DNA from: a virus
Direction: 5' to 3' (one strand)
DNA: 29,374 bases
Virus record (IMG/VR): IMGVR_UViG_3300023235_000098
Location: 1-29,374 of that record
The position numbers and the translations under genes were made by a program. Within the stretch, counting starts at the first letter, position 1; the number at the start of each line of letters is the position of its first letter. Of this stretch, positions 13,845 through 26,332 are shown piece by piece. Under the pieces are notes generated by a model. That model searched no databases, was not told the DNA's origin, and worked only from the letters and a program-made list of their open reading frames with translations.

Positions 13845-13880
13845 TATTTATATTATATACTATTTATGACTGATTGTCAA
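13845..13880 (-). promoter_or_regulatory. Compound promoter: sigma70 (early) plus T4-type late elements
   Basis: The minus strand carries TTGACA (13880-13875), a 17-bp spacer and TATAAT (13857-13852), a perfect sigma70 promoter. Within the spacer lies CATAAATA (13868-13861), and overlapping the -10 is TATAAATA (13852-13845), an exact T4 late element. It drives the 13787 block, and the stop codon of the 253-aa gene lies inside the -35. Confidence 0.8.
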
Positions 13881-14638
13881 GTGGTTTTTTGGTTAAAATA
13901 GTCAATGATTTGTTCAGTATTACCAACTATTATCCTGTGTTTGTGAGATAAACAAGTTTCTTTTAGTCTATCAATGTGACTTTCGCCTTCTATTCCGTCT
14001 AATTGAATAAAAAATATACTAGTATCATTATTTTGATTACAGTATAATTTAGCTTGTTCGGCAAACATAACTGCCTCTGTCATCTGTTGAGTTTGAATTG
14101 AACCAGAGTCTTTTGAATATTTTAAAAAGCCATATGCTGTAAAGCTATAATCGTATGGTTGAATTTTAACATCAATGCTTCTTGCTTCACCTATACCAGA
14201 TGTGACAGTATCTATCTTACCATTTCTTAAAGTAAGAGAACCACTTGATAAACTTATGATTTCTTTATCGCTATTAATATAACGCTTTAATGTTTCGTAT
14301 TGTACAATTTCATCTACACCTTGTCGTGTACTATCTCTACATAAAGATATTTGAATTGACTTTGGGCAAACCAAGTAATCTTTTGCTAATGATTTTATGT
14401 GATTAAAAGTTATATCTTCTTCACTCTTTAACCCATGGAATTGTAAGTTCTTAACTAATCTATTTTTTAAACCTTTAATAACAGATTTTATATTCTTATC
14501 TGTGCTATCTTCTTCGCACTGTGATATTGTTTTCCACTTTTCTCTATCTTCTATTAAATTTGATTCATTAGTTGCTTGACGACTTTTCTCTATATTATAA
14601 GTTCCGTTTTTACTTTCAACTATAATTTGTTTTGACAT
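13877..14638 (-). CDS. Unidentified 253-aa protein, possible nuclease fold
   Basis: I do not recognise this protein with confidence. Residues 1-90 are charged and helical. Residues 94-120 (SIQISLCRDSTRQGVDEIVQYETLKRY) read like a strand followed by a polar loop with Arg-Gln-Gly-x-Asp-Glu and a helix. Residues 153-160 (RSIDVKIQ) contain Asp156-x-Lys158, which could be the (D/E)xK half of a PD-(D/E)xK nuclease. Residues 165-215 alternate strands and helix with a hydrophobic core strand SIFFIQLDG. A restriction-like or recombination endonuclease is a guess from these motifs. It starts by a TAATG overlap and is the last gene of the uvsX-gp41 transcript. Confidence 0.65.
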   Translation of the reverse strand: MSKQIIVESKNGTYNIEKSRQATNESNLIEDREKWKTISQCEEDSTDKNIKSVIKGLKNRLVKNLQFHGLKSEEDITFNHIKSLAKDYLVCPKSIQISLCRDSTRQGVDEIVQYETLKRYINSDKEIISLSSGSLTLRNGKIDTVTSGIGEARSIDVKIQPYDYSFTAYGFLKYSKDSGSIQTQQMTEAVMFAEQAKLYCNQNNDTSIFFIQLDGIEGESHIDRLKETCLSHKHRIIVGNTEQIIDYFNQKTT

Positions 14639-17611: not shown

Positions 17612-17640
17612 AATATATCATACTTATATCTATTTGTCAA
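17612..17640 (-). promoter_or_regulatory. sigma70-type early promoter of uvsX
   Basis: Minus strand TTGACA (17640-17635), 17-bp spacer, TATATT (17617-17612), with TATGA immediately before the -10. It fills the short gap between the CmoA-like gene and uvsX and is followed by AAGGAG and ATG 17587. Confidence 0.85.
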
Positions 17641-17650
17641 CCCTAATTCC

Positions 17651-18328
17651 TTACTTCTTTAACGCAATAGCGCCCATAAAATTAAAGTTCTGCCAAAAGT
17701 TATGTACTTCAAAACCTGCCTTATTAAACATATTATATATTTCTGTTTTACTATTTAACTTCATCATATGCCTTAGCTGTACTTCTTTGTCTAATATTTC
17801 TTTATCAGTAAAGTTCTTTCTCTTATAATCATAGAAAGTAAAAGTCATCATATCTTGTATCCTTGGATTACAACTAAAAGTTTTTTCTGAAAAGATAAAC
17901 GCACCACCAGTATTTAAACCAGCATAAACTTTGTTAATAATTTCTTGTCTATCTTTGGGAGACATAAACTGTAAAGTAAATATAGAAGTCACTAAAGAAC
18001 AGTTTTGAAAATTAAAATCTCTTACATCACCTTTGTAATAATTTAAATGTTGATATTTGTCTTCATCAAAAGTATAGTCACCATAAAAATCTTCTTCTAT
18101 TTCTATACCTGTATATTGTGCGTGTGGTATATGAGGTTCATTTTGTTCTATCATACCTTTTAAAAGTTTACCTGTTGAACAACCAATGTCAACAACTTGT
18201 GTAAAATCTTCTACAAAATATTTTGATAGGGTAAGTATATCACCCCATAAGTGACTGTACCCTCTAACAGATTTATCAATGTGATTATCAAATCCTTCTT
18301 TGTCTGTGGCAAATGTAAATTTAGTCAT
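17651..18328 (-). CDS. CmoA-like class I SAM enzyme (carboxy-SAM synthase homologue)
   Basis: 225 residues with CmoA-type signatures over nearly the full length: SVRGYSHLW (20-28; CmoA SVPGYSN), VDIGCSTG (46-53; SAM motif I), GDVRDF (100-105), IFTLQFMSPKDRQEIINKVYAGLN (116-139), GGAFIFSEK (141-149) and YKRKNFTDKEIL (168-179), ending FNFMGAIALKK. In bacteria CmoA makes carboxy-S-adenosylmethionine from SAM and prephenate, used by CmoB for tRNA wobble uridine modification. No CmoB is in the window. The residue aligned (my hand alignment) with the Cx-SAM-binding Arg199 of E. coli CmoA is Glu182, with an Arg four residues later. It overlaps the cytosine methyltransferase by 8 bp (ATGACTAA) with AAGGAG at good spacing, so the two are co-translated. 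Confidence 0.8.
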   Translation of the reverse strand: MTKFTFATDKEGFDNHIDKSVRGYSHLWGDILTLSKYFVEDFTQVVDIGCSTGKLLKGMIEQNEPHIPHAQYTGIEIEEDFYGDYTFDEDKYQHLNYYKGDVRDFNFQNCSLVTSIFTLQFMSPKDRQEIINKVYAGLNTGGAFIFSEKTFSCNPRIQDMMTFTFYDYKRKNFTDKEILDKEVQLRHMMKLNSKTEIYNMFNKAGFEVHNFWQNFNFMGAIALKK

Positions 18329-19484
18329 TCATTATCTCCTTATATGGTTTTAATACTTTATTGTAAACACTTTCAGCAAGTGCCTTCATCATTAACGGAG
18401 GTACCATACGACCGATTCGTTCTGATTTTTGATTGTGTTTACCTGTTAGTTTAAAATCTTCAGGTAATGACATAATTCTTTTTAGTTCTTTAATAGTAAA
18501 TTTTCTATCTTCTGTTGGGTGGCAAGTACCAGCAACACCAGCAAGATTACCCATCGCAGTAATTGTTGGACAAGGTTTTCTTAAACTACTTCTTTTTAAA
18601 TTAAAGTGATGACCTTTGTCGTGGTAATCCATACCAGTCAATACTTTGTCAGGGTCTTTTGGCATTTTCATTAGTGTTTTACCAACAGCTCTTTCAGGAC
18701 TAATCTTATCAAACAAATATTCTAGTTCTTCTTTATCTTCATTCACTACATCATTAATAGCTTCACCAAGTGTAGTTCTAAAATCATTCTTATCAGGATA
18801 CAATTGATACATAGTCATAAAGTTTATACCAACTTTCTCAGCAACATCTTCTCTTACACCTATGAAGAAACATCTTTTACGAGATTGTGGTACACCAAAA
18901 TAACTTGAGTCTAATACATTAGCAACTATAAGATAACCTATTTCTTCAAATGTATTTTGTATCTTATGAAAATACTCTTTAGCTTCACCCATTGTCAAGC
19001 CTTCTACATTCTCGCCAATAATAACTTTTGGTTTTATATCTTTAGCCACTCTTAAAAATTCAAAGAATAAATCTTCTACATTCTCTACGCCTTTAATATC
19101 TGAATACTGTTTCTTTTTACCAAACGCATCTGCGTGAGTTCTACCCTCACCATGAGATACTGAACCTGCCATACTAAACGCTGAACACGGAGGAGAGCCA
19201 TCTAATATATCTAACTCACTAACTTTAACTCCAGCTTGTTCCATTAAATATGTACCTGTCAATTCTTTTATATCACCTGGTACGATAGTTGTATTTGGAT
19301 AATTTGCTCTATAAGTATTTTGTGCTTCAGGTACAAATTCATTAACTGCTAGTATCTTACCACCAGCCAATCTATAACCAGTTGACGAACCGCCACCACC
19401 AGCAAAAGTTGATAGTACATTAAATAGATTTCTTTTTTCACTATCTAAAGTATCTTGTAAAGTATATCTTTTATACATCTTCAT
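18321..19484 (-). CDS. C5-cytosine DNA methyltransferase with altered motif X
   Basis: 387 residues from ATG 19484 (ATG 19478 has better spacing to GGAA and may be the true start). Motif I is FAGGGGSSTGY (27-37), motif IV GSPPCSAFS (96-104, catalytic Cys100), motif VI GENVEGL (157-163), motif VIII FGVPQSRKRCFFIG (196-209), a short target-recognition region (about 210-300) and motif IX near 330-345. All catalytic parts are present, so it should act on C5 of cytosine. Motif X reads ERIGRMVPPL (355-364): Arg359 replaces the almost invariant Asn of GNAV/GNSV. That Asn lies in the cofactor pocket. With the CmoA-like gene directly downstream, use of carboxy-SAM is a strong hypothesis. No cognate restriction enzyme is recognised. 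Driven by the promoter at 19526-19554. Confidence 0.88.
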   Translation of the reverse strand: MKMYKRYTLQDTLDSEKRNLFNVLSTFAGGGGSSTGYRLAGGKILAVNEFVPEAQNTYRANYPNTTIVPGDIKELTGTYLMEQAGVKVSELDILDGSPPCSAFSMAGSVSHGEGRTHADAFGKKKQYSDIKGVENVEDLFFEFLRVAKDIKPKVIIGENVEGLTMGEAKEYFHKIQNTFEEIGYLIVANVLDSSYFGVPQSRKRCFFIGVREDVAEKVGINFMTMYQLYPDKNDFRTTLGEAINDVVNEDKEELEYLFDKISPERAVGKTLMKMPKDPDKVLTGMDYHDKGHHFNLKRSSLRKPCPTITAMGNLAGVAGTCHPTEDRKFTIKELKRIMSLPEDFKLTGKHNQKSERIGRMVPPLMMKALAESVYNKVLKPYKEIMND

Positions 19485-19525: not shown

Positions 19526-19554
19526 ATTATAACATAAAGTATTGATAATGTCAA
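19526..19554 (-). promoter_or_regulatory. Consensus sigma70 promoter of the cytosine methyltransferase operon
   Basis: Minus strand TTGACA (19554-19549), 17-bp spacer, TATAAT (19531-19526), preceded by TATGT (extended -10). Both hexamers are perfect. It starts the cytosine methyltransferase/CmoA-like transcript. Confidence 0.87.
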
Positions 19555-19562
19555 GTCTATAA

Positions 19563-20099
19563 TCATACTTCATTCCCCCAACTTGTCCAGCCTTCTCGTT
19601 TTCTACGAGCAAATAGTTCAATGTATGGTCCTTCTAACATATTCTCTATGTGGTTGTACACTATATCTGGCTTTCTACTATGTTCTCGTCTTTGTTCCAC
19701 AACTAATTGTGGTATACTTTTATTTAGCCGTTTAGGTTTACCCCTTGTAGCCAATAAGCACATTTCTGGATTGCCTCTTGTCCAATATCCTAGACCTGTA
19801 AAGAAACCCATTTTAACCCGATTCGTTTTCGCCCAAGTAAAACCTACTGTCTTGTACTTGAAACCCCACGCATCAATTACTTTAAATGCTTTGTCTAGCA
19901 AAGGATCAACTACCCACATTAAAAGGACTGCATCGTCCTTAGCAAGGTCGCTAACAGGTAAAGAAATAATGTCAGACATAGACATACAATCATAGTGTCT
20001 TTCAGGGCTTTTATCTTTGCCTTTGTCACTGTAAGTTTTAAAGGTCCAAGGTGGATCCGCATATATTACTCCATGTTTTTTGTTTATATTAAATTCCAT
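19563..20099 (-). CDS. MT-A70-type adenine methyltransferase
   Basis: 178 residues. DPPW at 15-18 in VIYADPPWTF is the catalytic motif of the MT-A70 N6-adenine methyltransferases. The rest matches the family's small single-domain phage forms: HYDCMSMSDIISLPV (35-49), LLMWVVDPLL (59-68), FTWAKTN (88-94), YWTRGNPEMCLLATRG (104-119) and the C-terminal ELFARRKREGW (160-170). The expected product is N6-methyladenine in DNA, protecting phage DNA or marking it. It overlaps the small membrane gene by 11 bp. The target site cannot be told from sequence. Confidence 0.88.
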   Translation of the reverse strand: MEFNINKKHGVIYADPPWTFKTYSDKGKDKSPERHYDCMSMSDIISLPVSDLAKDDAVLLMWVVDPLLDKAFKVIDAWGFKYKTVGFTWAKTNRVKMGFFTGLGYWTRGNPEMCLLATRGKPKRLNKSIPQLVVEQRREHSRKPDIVYNHIENMLEGPYIELFARRKREGWTSWGNEV

Positions 20100-20227: not shown

Positions 20228-22717
20228 CTAGACAAAGAAGTCCTCCAGACTAGCTGTCTTCTCAGTAGACCAACCAATAGAATTAAGTATAAAACTCATA
20301 GGGTCTACAAATGTTTTTTGAAACATAATATCATAGTCAATATATTCTTGTAGTTTAAATTCACTTGGTAGTTTTGTGACATAACTTATTACATCAAACT
20401 TAAATGGGTTTGCTTCTACTAGTTTTAGAAATTTAATCTTATCACCTTCTTGTATCAATGGATATTTTCTATGTAGTTTAAATTGTTTTAATTGTTCATT
20501 ATATATCAAAGCACCTTTAACATGAATAGGTGTTCCTTTAATAAAGATATTACTACCATGTTTATATTTAACTAGATTATTACAAGACCTAGGAAAAGAT
20601 ATTTGTTCAGCTGTCATTTGATAAAACTCTGTTTTAAAATTAGCAATAAACTTTTGTAAAGTTTCTTCATCTTCTGTCATTATAAGTTTAATTGCTTGTC
20701 TAATATTCCCTCTACAAACTTCAGGTGTTGATGACTTCACAGCTTCAATACCCATAATCTTTAACTTAGGTTCATCAAAAGTAATACCTTCTTCATCTAA
20801 TACATTTAACATATATCTTTTTTTAGCAGTCCATATACCTTTGTCAGCTATTACTTCTCTTTTCATAACCATTTTTTGTTTAATAGCATTTGTATATTCA
20901 GCAAGTTCATCAAAACATTTATCTATAAAAGGTTCAATTCTACTTTCAACAACTTTGTTTAAAAACTTTAATGTATCAGCTTTTGATTTATCTTTACAAG
21001 TCGCTTGTACTAGTTTGTCTAGTGTAAGATAGATTGAATCTGTATCTGACGCAACAATATAATCAACTTCATTTGTTGATTTTAAAATCTTATTCATATA
21101 CTCATTTACATTTTTTTGAATATAACGAATTACAAATTGACCAGCTGATGTTATAGCAGTTGCTTGTCTTACATCATAATATCTAAAGTATTGATTACCA
21201 ATAGCGCCATAAGCAGAGTTAAGAGCAATCTTCTTTGACCATTGTATGTTATGACAACGAGATATTTCTTTTAATAAAGTTTTATCTTTTGTCTTTTGAT
21301 ATTCTTGTTTTGCTTTAAACTCTAAAGTCTTAAACTTAACCCTATCATTGTACATACTTTCCATAAGTCTAGGTAAGAAACCAGGACTATCTACTTTAAA
21401 CTTAGCACCATTTGGTGTAATACAAGCGCCTTCAGCTTTTAAATGTGTTAACGGTGTCGCATTGTTTAACAATTTATCAACTGATATACCTGATGGTTCT
21501 ACTCCGATAATTTTTTCTGGTGAGATATTATATTGCATAATCAAGTGTGGATATAGTGAGTTAATATCAAATGATACAATCCAATTATGCATACCTGTAA
21601 TAGGGTCTTTTACATAAGCGCCTTCGTACTTATCGTCTTTAATATTATTTTCTTTAGGAGGAATCATAATATTTTCTTTTTTCAAATAATTGTAAATTAA
21701 CATATCCCACATTCTTACTTGTGAGAATACATCTGTATAATTTACTTTAGCTTCATACGCCATAGTTAAGACTAGTTCAATTAGTTTTAGTTTATCTTCT
21801 AACCCATCAACTATCTCAACATCTTGTATATTGTAATCTATAAATGATTGAAAGTCTTTTGTATACCATTCTCTAAATGTATCATAAGGCATTTCATCTT
21901 TACCTTTACCAAGTTCTACTTTACCAATATAGTCAAGTTTATAACTTTCTGGCTTTGTTGGAATAAACTTTTTGTATAGGTCCAGATAATCTAACATAGC
22001 GATACCAAAAATATTATAGTGAGTTTGTTCTCTACCTCTTACTACAATAGACTCTTTCTCAACTAAATTCCATGGACTAAATTTCTTTAATACTTTTTCA
22101 TCTACTATATTTCTTATTCTATTAAACATATATGGAATATCAAAAAACTTTGTATTCCAACCAGTAATAACATCAGGATAGTTTTTGGTCCAGAATTTCA
22201 TAAACTCCATAACCAAACTCTTTTCATTCTTACATTTAATATAAGTCACATCTGGTCTATCAGTTTTAAAGTCACCAATACCCCAAGTTATAATTTGTTT
22301 ATTAGATTGATTTTTAACTGTGATTGCTAATAGTTCTTCTACTGGGTTATCTATATCAGGAAAACCATTTTCAGCAGTACATTCTATATCAACTGTAAAT
22401 ATTTTAATTGCATCTTTATCAAACTTCATGTCTTCTGGATATTCGTTAGCAATCCATTGATACTGATACCGATCCATTCCATACAATGGTGAGTTATCTG
22501 TATCATAACTTCTTTTAAATTCTCTTGCTTTTGATATACTAGGAAATTGAATTGGTCTTAACGATTGTCCATGTAATGTTTTAAATTCTGAATCTTCTTG
22601 TGTAATACCATATAGAGTTGGTGAAAAGTCTAATTTATTTTTATACTCTTTACCCTCGTGTATACCACGAACAAGTAATTTGCCTCTATGTTCAATAACG
22701 CTTTTATAAAAATTCAC
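20228..22717 (-). CDS. 43: DNA polymerase, family B, T4 gp43-like
   Basis: 829 residues (T4 gp43 is 898), starting at GTG 22717 after AGAGGA. Exonuclease motif Exo I is FTVDIECT (107-114, Asp110/Glu112), Exo II GWNTKFFDIPY (186-196) and Exo III around YNIQDVEIVDGL (295-306). Polymerase motif A is SFDINSLYP (382-390), motif B KKIALNSAYGAIGN (495-508) and motif C ASDTDSIYL (556-564). Both proofreading and polymerase sites are intact. The C-terminus TASLEDFFV resembles the clamp-binding tail that docks gp43 on gp45. It is the fork polymerase. Unlike in T4 it is separated from RegA by five auxiliary genes. It overlaps the Mom-like gene by 14 bp. Confidence 0.96.
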   Translation of the reverse strand: MNFYKSVIEHRGKLLVRGIHEGKEYKNKLDFSPTLYGITQEDSEFKTLHGQSLRPIQFPSISKAREFKRSYDTDNSPLYGMDRYQYQWIANEYPEDMKFDKDAIKIFTVDIECTAENGFPDIDNPVEELLAITVKNQSNKQIITWGIGDFKTDRPDVTYIKCKNEKSLVMEFMKFWTKNYPDVITGWNTKFFDIPYMFNRIRNIVDEKVLKKFSPWNLVEKESIVVRGREQTHYNIFGIAMLDYLDLYKKFIPTKPESYKLDYIGKVELGKGKDEMPYDTFREWYTKDFQSFIDYNIQDVEIVDGLEDKLKLIELVLTMAYEAKVNYTDVFSQVRMWDMLIYNYLKKENIMIPPKENNIKDDKYEGAYVKDPITGMHNWIVSFDINSLYPHLIMQYNISPEKIIGVEPSGISVDKLLNNATPLTHLKAEGACITPNGAKFKVDSPGFLPRLMESMYNDRVKFKTLEFKAKQEYQKTKDKTLLKEISRCHNIQWSKKIALNSAYGAIGNQYFRYYDVRQATAITSAGQFVIRYIQKNVNEYMNKILKSTNEVDYIVASDTDSIYLTLDKLVQATCKDKSKADTLKFLNKVVESRIEPFIDKCFDELAEYTNAIKQKMVMKREVIADKGIWTAKKRYMLNVLDEEGITFDEPKLKIMGIEAVKSSTPEVCRGNIRQAIKLIMTEDEETLQKFIANFKTEFYQMTAEQISFPRSCNNLVKYKHGSNIFIKGTPIHVKGALIYNEQLKQFKLHRKYPLIQEGDKIKFLKLVEANPFKFDVISYVTKLPSEFKLQEYIDYDIMFQKTFVDPMSFILNSIGWSTEKTASLEDFFV

Positions 22718-23483
22718 TTAAGGTTCCTCTTTTAAACGATTCTACATTCTTCTTATTATACACATAATCCTTTGATAAGTCAAATGGTATTTTGGTCGTT
22801 GTTGTATAGTCTTTTTCGCCTGGTCTTTTTATCTTCCATACTAAATCTTTACCCTTTGGATAGTTAGTTGTCCATTCTGTTGTAGATTTTTTTAACCATC
22901 TTCTATATTTTTTAGTCATAGGATAAATGTATCTAAATTGTTTACCTTTAACTCTACTTAATTTTAATTCTATTAATTGTTGAGGATTTGGTCTCATACC
23001 TACTTTACGATTTTTAGTGTTAGGTATTATTCCTTGTAATGTTCTTGGGTGTATCTTCTCACCTGTTTCTGAAACATATGTATCTGTAAATGAGAAACCA
23101 CCATATAAAAAATTAGCAGCTTGATATACATAACCAGGTTTACCAACTAAACCATCTGCCCAAGTAAACAAATATTTTATAGTAGTGTTTTCTTTTAACC
23201 AAGATATTGCTGAAGATAGTAATTGCGATTCACTATTCCTAAGTAGTTTATCATCTAAGCACATCTTACCTATCTCGTAATAATCTTTTGTGTCTAGCTC
23301 TGGAAACAACTTTTGTATTGTATGTTTAGGTCTTGTACCCCAACCAAATGTAATCACACCAACTAACTCCTCATTATCAAAATAACCTAGATAGTGTTTT
23401 GTCAATCTAGGCATTACTGCTGAATAGTGTCTAGTAGAAACAAACTCTGCCGCAGTGTATTTGTTTACTATTTTTAATATCAT
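22704..23483 (-). CDS. Mom-like adenine-modification protein (GNAT-fold family)
   Basis: 259 residues from ATG 23483, which forms an ATGA overlap with thyX; a TTG at 23501 is a poorer choice. The sequence fits the Mom/adenine-modification pattern of phages as I remember it: TRHYSAVMP (17-25), YLGYFDNEELVGVITFGWG (31-49), YEIGKMCL (69-76), SESQLLSSAISWL (85-97), LFTWADG (105-111) and GYVYQAANFLYGG (117-129). Phage Mu Mom converts DNA adenine to an N6-carbamoylmethyl form that blocks restriction. The C-terminal 100 residues are basic and may bind DNA. Whether this homologue makes the same base is unknown; a generic GNAT acetyltransferase is the alternative. It sits between thyX and gene 43. Confidence 0.7.
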   Translation of the reverse strand: MILKIVNKYTAAEFVSTRHYSAVMPRLTKHYLGYFDNEELVGVITFGWGTRPKHTIQKLFPELDTKDYYEIGKMCLDDKLLRNSESQLLSSAISWLKENTTIKYLFTWADGLVGKPGYVYQAANFLYGGFSFTDTYVSETGEKIHPRTLQGIIPNTKNRKVGMRPNPQQLIELKLSRVKGKQFRYIYPMTKKYRRWLKKSTTEWTTNYPKGKDLVWKIKRPGEKDYTTTTKIPFDLSKDYVYNKKNVESFKRGTLSEFL

Positions 23484-24109
23484 ATTGTTAAATATTTCCA
23501 ACTATACGGAAACTCTTTATCACAGATTTTATACATCTCGTCTGCAACATCTCTGGTTTCTTTTTGTGTATCTGGTTTACATCTTAAATTACATACCCTA
23601 GAAAATGCGTATAATGTTCCTGACCAATACCATTCTGTCATCATTGATTGTGGTAATACCATTCGTGCTTGTTCTGGCGCCACACCTTTTGTTAACAAAG
23701 TATTATAAAGTATTAGACAACTCTCCATCGCTGTTTCCATATTATGATTGATTGTTTGGTCTAGTTTTATCTCACCATCACTACCTTGTTTAGAGTTCTT
23801 TGGTCGTCCTCTCCATGTTTCTGGTTTATATAGTTCTGGTGGAAAGTCAACATAACGCCTACTGACTTCATTCCAAGCTAATCCTACTTGATGTTTAACT
23901 AATTGTCTTGCGACAAAGATTGGTGCTTTAATTCTAAATTGTAAACTTGCGTGAGCAAAAGGTGACCAATGATTATGTTCTGCTAGATACTTAATAAGTT
24001 TCTCATCAGAAAAATCAAAACTTGCTTTAGTCTTTGAATAACTTACTCTAGCAGCATTTACTACTGTCAAGTCATTCCCCATTTTATCTACTAGTTCAAC
24101 TTTTATCAT
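23480..24109 (-). CDS. thyX: Flavin-dependent thymidylate synthase
   Basis: 209 residues, within the usual ThyX range. ThyX signature in phage-variant form: ARQLVKHQVGLAWNEVSRRY (67-86), with Lys72-His-Gln74 in place of the classical Arg-His-Arg and one extra residue before NE. HNHWSPFAHASLQFRIKAP (45-63) and the late EQARMVLP (about 145-152) are the other flavin/dUMP-binding segments. The segment WRGRPKNSKQGS is also typical of the phage form. The enzyme makes dTMP from dUMP with FAD, NADPH and methylene-tetrahydrofolate, supplying thymidine for an AT-rich genome. ATGA coupling to the Mom-like gene; the ribosome site is weak. Confidence 0.93.
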   Translation of the reverse strand: MIKVELVDKMGNDLTVVNAARVSYSKTKASFDFSDEKLIKYLAEHNHWSPFAHASLQFRIKAPIFVARQLVKHQVGLAWNEVSRRYVDFPPELYKPETWRGRPKNSKQGSDGEIKLDQTINHNMETAMESCLILYNTLLTKGVAPEQARMVLPQSMMTEWYWSGTLYAFSRVCNLRCKPDTQKETRDVADEMYKICDKEFPYSWKYLTI

Positions 24110-24817: not shown

Positions 24818-26332
24818 TTATTTTTCGTCATTGTCTTCTTTATCTGGTTCAAAACCAACTCTTTTATCTTTACCTTTTTTGTCAATCGGTTTTAATCGTT
24901 TACTCAATACAAATGTTCTATTAGGGTTGACACTAATATTCATTAATCGCATTAAATCTCTATTTACAAGTAAGTCAGAACCTGATCTAGGTCTTTGGTC
25001 TAAACCAATCTCTATATCTTTATATGTAAAACCATTAAATGTTAAATCCATTAATATAGTTGGTCTTGTTTCTGATGGCTCATCTGTTGCATTTGATCTA
25101 AACACTTTACTTGTACCATGTCTAGGTTTACTAAATGTTTTACCATTGTATTTCCATTTAATAATCTTACCATCTTCTAAAATTTCATCTGCGTGTAAAG
25201 CACAAGCTGCTGAACCATTACCTGTGTCAAACTTAACTCTTACTTTACCTACTTCATCTAACTCAACTGTTTCTAACCAACCAGTTTCTATAAGTGATTG
25301 TCTATCCCAATGAGCTCTATCGGAAATATAATCTACTACATTGGCCATCATCTGTTCACCATCTATTCTACCAGCTGGTTCTGCGTCAGAATAATAATCT
25401 CTGTGTTGATAACCTTCATAATCAGCGCCTGATCCAGGACTACCATTAATCTCTAATAGATAAGGTTTTTTATTGTGTACAATATGATCTACACCTACCA
25501 TGTAAGCTCTGGATACTCTACTTGCTTTTAATACAAGTTCTCTTTCTTCATCACTTAATATATATGGTGACGCCTCTGCGCCTCTGTGTGTGTTTGATCT
25601 AAAGTCATAACTACTGTGAGTTCTTTTTGTACTAGCAAAAATTTTATTATCTATTACGAAAGTTCTTACATCAAAACTACTAGGCATATATTCTTGTATT
25701 AGAAGTTCGGCCTCTAGTTTCCACATGGCTTGTACAGTCGCCACCAAAGCTTCGTATGTATCAATCTTAATAACACCAACACCTTGTGTACCTGTAAGTG
25801 TTTTTAGAATTAATGGAAATTTACCACCAATCATATCTACACCACTTTTGATATTATTTTCGTTTGTAATGAATGCTGTTTTTGGAGTTGGTAAACCAAA
25901 TTTCTCAAATAGTAAAGCTGTTGTTAATTTATTATCACAAGTCAACATTGCTGCTCTTGTGTTTACCATAAACGCTTGTGAGTTTTGAAAAGATGATATT
26001 AAAGATAACCCAGCTTCATCTTCAAGTGCGCCACCTCTAGTTATACAAACTGTATCTCTACCTGTAAAAGTATGTTCAGCACCTTTGCCGTCATAGTTTG
26101 ATACAGTCAAAGTACCTTTGTCTTCATCTTTTGAAGTGATGATTGTAGTTTTAGTATTTACAATAATACATTCAATCTTTTTTTTCTTACATGCTTTTGT
26201 AATTAAATCAGCTGTTGTATTTTCTTTAGGGTCTTGTGAATCAGCTACTGTGACAATAGCTACTGTGATAGATTTATCTTTACGACCTATATCTGTTTCT
26301 GTTATATATTCTCTAAATTTAGGAACCAACAT
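24818..26332 (-). CDS. RimK-like ATP-grasp ligase fused to RimB-like aspartic protease domain
   Basis: 504 residues, two domains. Residues 22-345 are an ATP-grasp ligase of the RimK group: KFPLILKTLTGTQGVGV (171-187, Lys177), LIQEYMPSSFDVRTFVI (211-227), FRSNTHRGAEASPY (244-257; RimK FRSNxHRGG) and the metal site YLLEINGSPG (291-300). RimK adds glutamates to the C-terminus of ribosomal protein S6. Residues 350-485 look like the RimB/DUF-type retropepsin domain that trims such tails: VRVKFDTGNGSAACALHADEI (365-384 region, DTG at 369-371) and GSDLLVNRDLM (451-461). RimK and RimB are usually separate proteins. It begins with KFREYITE, like a capsid-targeting leader. It follows regA with no gap. 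The target could be S6, another host protein or a modified base. Confidence 0.87.
   Translation of the reverse strand: MLVPKFREYITETDIGRKDKSITVAIVTVADSQDPKENTTADLITKACKKKKIECIIVNTKTTIITSKDEDKGTLTVSNYDGKGAEHTFTGRDTVCITRGGALEDEAGLSLISSFQNSQAFMVNTRAAMLTCDNKLTTALLFEKFGLPTPKTAFITNENNIKSGVDMIGGKFPLILKTLTGTQGVGVIKIDTYEALVATVQAMWKLEAELLIQEYMPSSFDVRTFVIDNKIFASTKRTHSSYDFRSNTHRGAEASPYILSDEERELVLKASRVSRAYMVGVDHIVHNKKPYLLEINGSPGSGADYEGYQHRDYYSDAEPAGRIDGEQMMANVVDYISDRAHWDRQSLIETGWLETVELDEVGKVRVKFDTGNGSAACALHADEILEDGKIIKWKYNGKTFSKPRHGTSKVFRSNATDEPSETRPTILMDLTFNGFTYKDIEIGLDQRPRSGSDLLVNRDLMRLMNISVNPNRTFVLSKRLKPIDKKGKDKRVGFEPDKEDNDEK

Follow-up and report, generated by a model that had tools for sequence, protein, structure and literature searches.

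In December 2025, Yang et al. (Nat Commun 2025; PMC12783734) described for the first time the phage enzymes CmoX and CmoA and their product 5-carboxymethylcytosine (5cxmC), together with 5,615 CmoX homologues. As described there, CmoX of Synechococcus phage S-B43 (SpCmoX) acts on DNA cytosine, with GC as the S-B43 target, and was crystallized with carboxy-S-adenosyl-L-methionine (Cx-SAM), revealing that Arg350, at the place of Asn304 of M.HhaI, touches the carboxymethyl group. The wild-type enzyme takes only Cx-SAM and the R350N variant is inactive, taking neither cofactor. S-B43 also has a ligase, CmoY, which attaches glycine, making 5cxmC an intermediate only and 5-glycyl-cxmC the actual DNA base. 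The structure 8YF3, entitled ‘DNA cytosine C5-carboxymethyltransferase in complex with Cx-SAM’, is that of the S-B43 CmoX. For the synthase, Arg199 of E. coli CmoA was found to bind the cofactor carboxylate (PMC3663124).

The window analysed here is the whole of a 29,374-nucleotide virus record, a genome fragment of a marine T4-like phage (nearest DNA matches, P-TIM68 and HTVC008M), which carries on its minus strand two overlapping genes, cmoX and cmoA. By homology, they are very probably the core genes of the phage system described above and would produce 5cxmC in the phage DNA. As judged from its sequence, the pair is another member of the published CmoX/CmoA kind rather than a new kind of system, and the window adds an abundant marine lineage to this DNA modification.

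The overlapping genes cmoX and cmoA

The cmoX gene (18321-19484, minus strand) is a complete open reading frame for a 387-residue homologue of the DNA cytosine C5-carboxymethyltransferases. A preliminary description, made from the sequence alone, had given its coordinates and residues correctly, leaving the strand unstated, and had rightly taken the catalytic motifs to be intact: GSPPC with Cys100, ENV (158-160) and QSRKR are all present, PF00145 (C-5 cytosine methylase) covers residues 21-373 in a profile search (E 1.8e-56), and the Dcm profile is also a strong match. Motif X reads IGRMVPP (357-363) and, as proposed in the same description, its Arg359 occupies the Asn position, being aligned with Asn304 of M.HhaI, with the Asn of M.HaeIII, with the Arg of 8YF3 and, in a multiple alignment, with Arg350 of SpCmoX. 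SpCmoX is 58% identical to CmoX over 372 residues, and among solved structures 8YF3 is the nearest in sequence (E 7.8e-142). Foldseek, queried with an AlphaFold2 model of CmoX (pLDDT 87.2), also ranked 8YF3 first (E 2.4e-41; TM 0.93 on target), with M.MpeI (4DKJ) only at rank 50. Alignment and fold match do not place Arg359 away from the cofactor, an arrangement that the preliminary description had named as incompatible with its proposal. The Cx-SAM contacts F25, E47, F48 and D69 of SpCmoX are kept in CmoX as F27, E49, F50 and D71, and its nucleophile Cys98 and Arg350 are likewise conserved. The earlier suggestion that the Arg would lie against the cofactor carboxylate is consistent with the contact reported for Arg350 of SpCmoX (PMC12783734).

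Carboxymethyl transfer had been predicted for this enzyme from an M.MpeI precedent and now gains support from the 58% identical SpCmoX with its Cx-SAM and, as the decisive local evidence, from the overlapping cmoA, which had escaped notice; the earlier reading is already accounted for by the published system. The precedent is engineered M.MpeI N374K, in which replacing the motif X Asn by a basic residue reportedly lets the enzyme take Cx-SAM. CmoX shares the basic residue, but M.MpeI N374K is engineered, has Lys and is CpG-specific, whereas CmoX is natural, has Arg and is accompanied by its own Cx-SAM synthase gene. Natural enzymes would appear to exploit the principle on which the engineered variant relies.

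The cmoA gene (17651-18328, minus strand; 225 residues) lies directly downstream of cmoX, the end of which it overlaps by 8 bp. Its assignment as a carboxy-S-adenosyl-L-methionine synthase homologue is consistent across profile, sequence and fold comparisons: the NCBIfam CmoA models TIGR00740 and PRK15451 match at E ~1e-30, with scores under the equivalog cut-offs (107 versus 285 and 105 versus 193 bits), the sole close solved relatives are the E. coli and H. influenzae CmoA proteins, a fold search places CmoA (4iwn/4gek) on top, and the identity to SpCmoA is 52%. The E. coli enzyme (4GEK, 4IWN) and that of the window are alike in fold, in most cofactor contacts and in Glu164. They differ at the Arg199 column, which is Glu in the window protein with an invariant Arg at +4, approximately one turn of helix further along; the biochemically active SpCmoA has the same Glu and Arg(+4) arrangement. 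A role in the tRNA cmo5U pathway was rejected as unlikely for this protein because CmoB (PF08003) was not found in the window nor in nine relatives.

Compared with S-B43, the catalytic Cys, the Arg, the Cx-SAM contacts and the presence of CmoA beside the gene are all shared, but the gene order is cmoX-cmoA in the window and cmoA-cmoY-cmoX in S-B43, the window fragment is without CmoY, and the target sequence of the window CmoX may differ from the GC of S-B43. From the biochemically proven homologues, which are 52-58% identical, we infer the following reactions. CmoA would convert SAM and prephenate into Cx-SAM; CmoX would flip out a cytosine, the C6 of which would be attacked by Cys100, with Arg359 binding the extra carboxylate of the cofactor, and would transfer the carboxymethyl group to C5 to yield 5cxmC in the phage DNA, presumably countering host restriction. 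The final mark would be free 5cxmC or an amide formed by a ligase encoded off the fragment.

Transcription unit and neighbouring genes

A perfect consensus sigma-70 promoter (TTGACA, 17-nt spacer, TATAAT, with an extended -10 TG) is found at 19526-19554 on the minus strand, 41 nt upstream of cmoX. Matches of 10-12 out of 12 positions lie within 100 nt upstream of the cmoX start in 69 of 75 relatives versus 30 of 375 random windows, and the distance between promoter and cmoX is mostly equal among the relatives listed. A promoter-like site (11/12 match; 17612-17640, minus strand) follows cmoA and precedes uvsX, so that the two sites together suggest that cmoX and cmoA form their own transcription unit. 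Across the phages compared, the two genes either occur together or are both missing between uvsX and a gene for an MT-A70 type N6-adenine methyltransferase homologue (19563-20099, minus strand), which is the upstream neighbour of cmoX in most relatives. The possibility that the MT-A70 protein acts as an N6-carboxymethyltransferase was rejected: its gene stays in some phages when the cassette is absent, which sets it apart from cmoX-cmoA, and the conserved promoter separates it from cmoX.

The window also encodes a Mom family protein (PF25680, E 8.8e-52; 22704-23501) between thyX and the DNA polymerase, so that three different DNA-modification genes, for Mom, MT-A70 and CmoX, lie within 6 kb. 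Mom was considered as a component of the CmoX system since it also adds a carbamoylmethyl-type group, and was rejected, as its relatives occur both with and without the cassette and it thus has no link to cmoX-cmoA. A 253-residue open reading frame adjoining the helicase gene (13877-14638) has no match in Pfam, PHROGs or PADLOC.

The motif X residue and its partner gene

The closest 80 viral relatives of CmoX (77-100% identity) were compared with relatives of other phage C5-methyltransferases as controls, giving 344 phage methyltransferase rows in all. Among the closest relatives, Arg is found in 83 of 83 readable motifs X, so that Arg359 is neither a sequencing nor a chance oddity, and cmoA is close to cmoX in all those whose contig extends past cmoX. 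In the full set, Arg is accompanied by CmoA in 158 of 168 phage loci, rows that are not independent, as on a tree built without the motif X residue itself Arg requires only three changes. The ten exceptions comprise four contigs that end at the gene, two that end soon after, one spurious fragment and three similar loci (L346-L348) in which Arg is present and CmoA was not found, and which count against the pairing. Gly is accompanied by CmoA in 4 of 4 rows, versus none of the 170 with Leu (80), Met (79), Asn (10) or Asp (1). A tree-aware test of the Arg-CmoA contrast has only two to three independent pairs, which puts significance out of reach, and the joint presence of Arg and CmoA is for the most part inherited from common ancestors. 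One of the contrasts carries weight by its content: the sequence of locus L264 (2760-6184), where CmoA, CmoY, an HhaI-type (GFPC) C5-methyltransferase with Arg (GRTV) and a second methyltransferase with Gly stand in a row, indicates that Arg arose independently next to CmoA, outside the GSPPC clade.

According to the preliminary description, Asn is nearly universal at this position in the family. This fails for the phage GSPPC subfamily, whose members without CmoA have Leu (80/80) or Met (79), and because of them a departure from Asn is not by itself diagnostic there, while Arg, as far as the sequences allow one to judge, is. Residue and partner gene together offer a simple rule for predicting which phage cytosine enzymes transfer methyl and which carboxymethyl groups.

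The Leu enzymes are found in Melnitz-type phages (Methylophilales), which encode a GSPPC methyltransferase 43% identical to CmoX, with Leu where CmoX has Arg, between DNA polymerase and uvsX (L084-L163; L083, 4010-6194). A TET/JBP oxygenase (PF12851) adjoins the Leu enzyme in 64 of 80 loci, and CmoA was not found in a complete 141-kb Melnitz-type genome. The two arrangements are alike in the GSPPC enzyme and in the genome slot, but pair Leu with an oxygenase in one case and Arg with CmoA in the other. Phage TET systems are said to have been treated by Burke et al. in PNAS in 2021. The Leu loci would probably make 5-hydroxymethylcytosine, through 5mC, instead of a carboxymethyl mark. Tree support for nesting the Leu enzymes inside the Arg clade is moderate (SH-aLRT 90-93), and the simplest reading would be a shift from carboxymethylation to methylation plus oxidation, residue and partner gene changing together.

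These comparisons also bear on whether CmoX could be an ordinary SAM-dependent 5mC methyltransferase in which the change to Arg is neutral and to which CmoA is a bystander for tRNA modification. The strong PF00145 and Dcm matches would fit such an enzyme, and the Leu and Met relatives without CmoA imply that the position tolerates change; nevertheless, we regard it as very unlikely given that, in the published account, wild-type SpCmoX is restricted to Cx-SAM and loses activity as R350N, that CmoA adjoins in every relative with a long enough contig, that CmoB was not detected in the window or the nine relatives, and that Arg never occurs with a TET partner in the 344 rows. Use of Cx-SAM by CmoX on another base or on RNA appears extremely improbable, as the cytosine-handling motifs ENV and QxRxR and the catalytic Cys are intact and the homologue SpCmoX is reported to act on DNA cytosine (PMC12783734).

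Several other loci deserve mention. An SPPC-based search would miss the HhaI-type enzyme of L264. In Staphylococcus SPbeta-like phages (L244, 7983-9682; L243, 7959-10477; L262, L263 and L265) CmoA adjoins a GSPC-type C5-methyltransferase, with one gene between the two in L243; these enzymes carry Gly in place of the motif X Asn (VVGGVINQ) and possibly represent another carboxymethyltransferase type without Arg. The Met enzymes (79 rows, L351-L430) are GSPPC methyltransferases of the Flavobacterium-phage type, with neither CmoA nor TET in their flanks. The CmoX-like methyltransferase of Erwinia phage Y3 (L247, 30409-32538) carries, directly after the catalytic Cys, an insertion of several hundred residues that ends, like an intein, in VVHN-C; because of this insertion the Y3 enzyme was excluded from the tree.

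Free 5cxmC or an amide as the final mark

In S-B43 the carboxymethyl group is only a step on the way to an amide, and the system of the window may continue in the same manner, with a CmoY encoded outside the contig or with another ligase conjugating an amine to 5cxmC. Such an added step is compatible with the CmoX/CmoA reading and has, in our opinion, nearly an even chance of being correct. In addition to the S-B43 precedent (PMC12783734), it is favoured by the fragmentary nature of the contig and by the relative L080, in which CmoY stands beside two CmoX copies. On the other hand, CmoY (PF00733), the third component of the CmoA-CmoX-CmoY system, was not found on the 29-kb contig, and PF00733 is also absent from all but one of the 20 long contigs of relatives and from the complete genomes of two cyanophages that encode CmoA-CmoX, S-CRM01 and RN05-S. 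In RN05-S (L434, 5268-7107) 25 bp separate CmoA from CmoX, at the place taken up by CmoY in S-B43. Because of these absences, the final mark in the window phage may be free 5cxmC, and ligase-free members can show whether 5cxmC alone protects DNA. As a candidate for the alternative ligase, a 504-residue RimK-type ATP-grasp protein (24818-26332) was rejected since relatives that lack CmoX, Melnitz/TET phages among them, have its gene as well, so that it is not tied to the CmoX system. We take the C-terminal half of this protein to resemble a RimB-like protease domain.

A broader picture may tentatively be drawn, although we would give it somewhat less than an even chance: the slot by the DNA polymerase in marine T4-like phages would switch between Arg359 with CmoA and Leu with TET, 5cxmC would stay unligated here, its extra negative charges being the final mark, and the HhaI-type Arg and the Gly enzymes would be further carboxymethyltransferase lineages. 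What the present comparison contributes is the pairing of Arg with CmoA as against Leu with TET, an Arg that arose independently, Gly enzymes next to CmoA, and members that have no ligase; these were not found in the passages of the PMC12783734 main text that the comparison covers.

In L080 (6641-10405; also L077-L079) CmoY, two CmoX paralogues, both with Arg, and CmoA are encoded in a row, which suggests that the paralogues may have two target specificities. In Aeromonas phage HJ05 (L248, 2645-7420) CmoA is followed, three genes on, by a DAHP synthase (AroG-like, TIGR00034, E 7.6e-82), through which more prephenate, the CmoA co-substrate, might become available.
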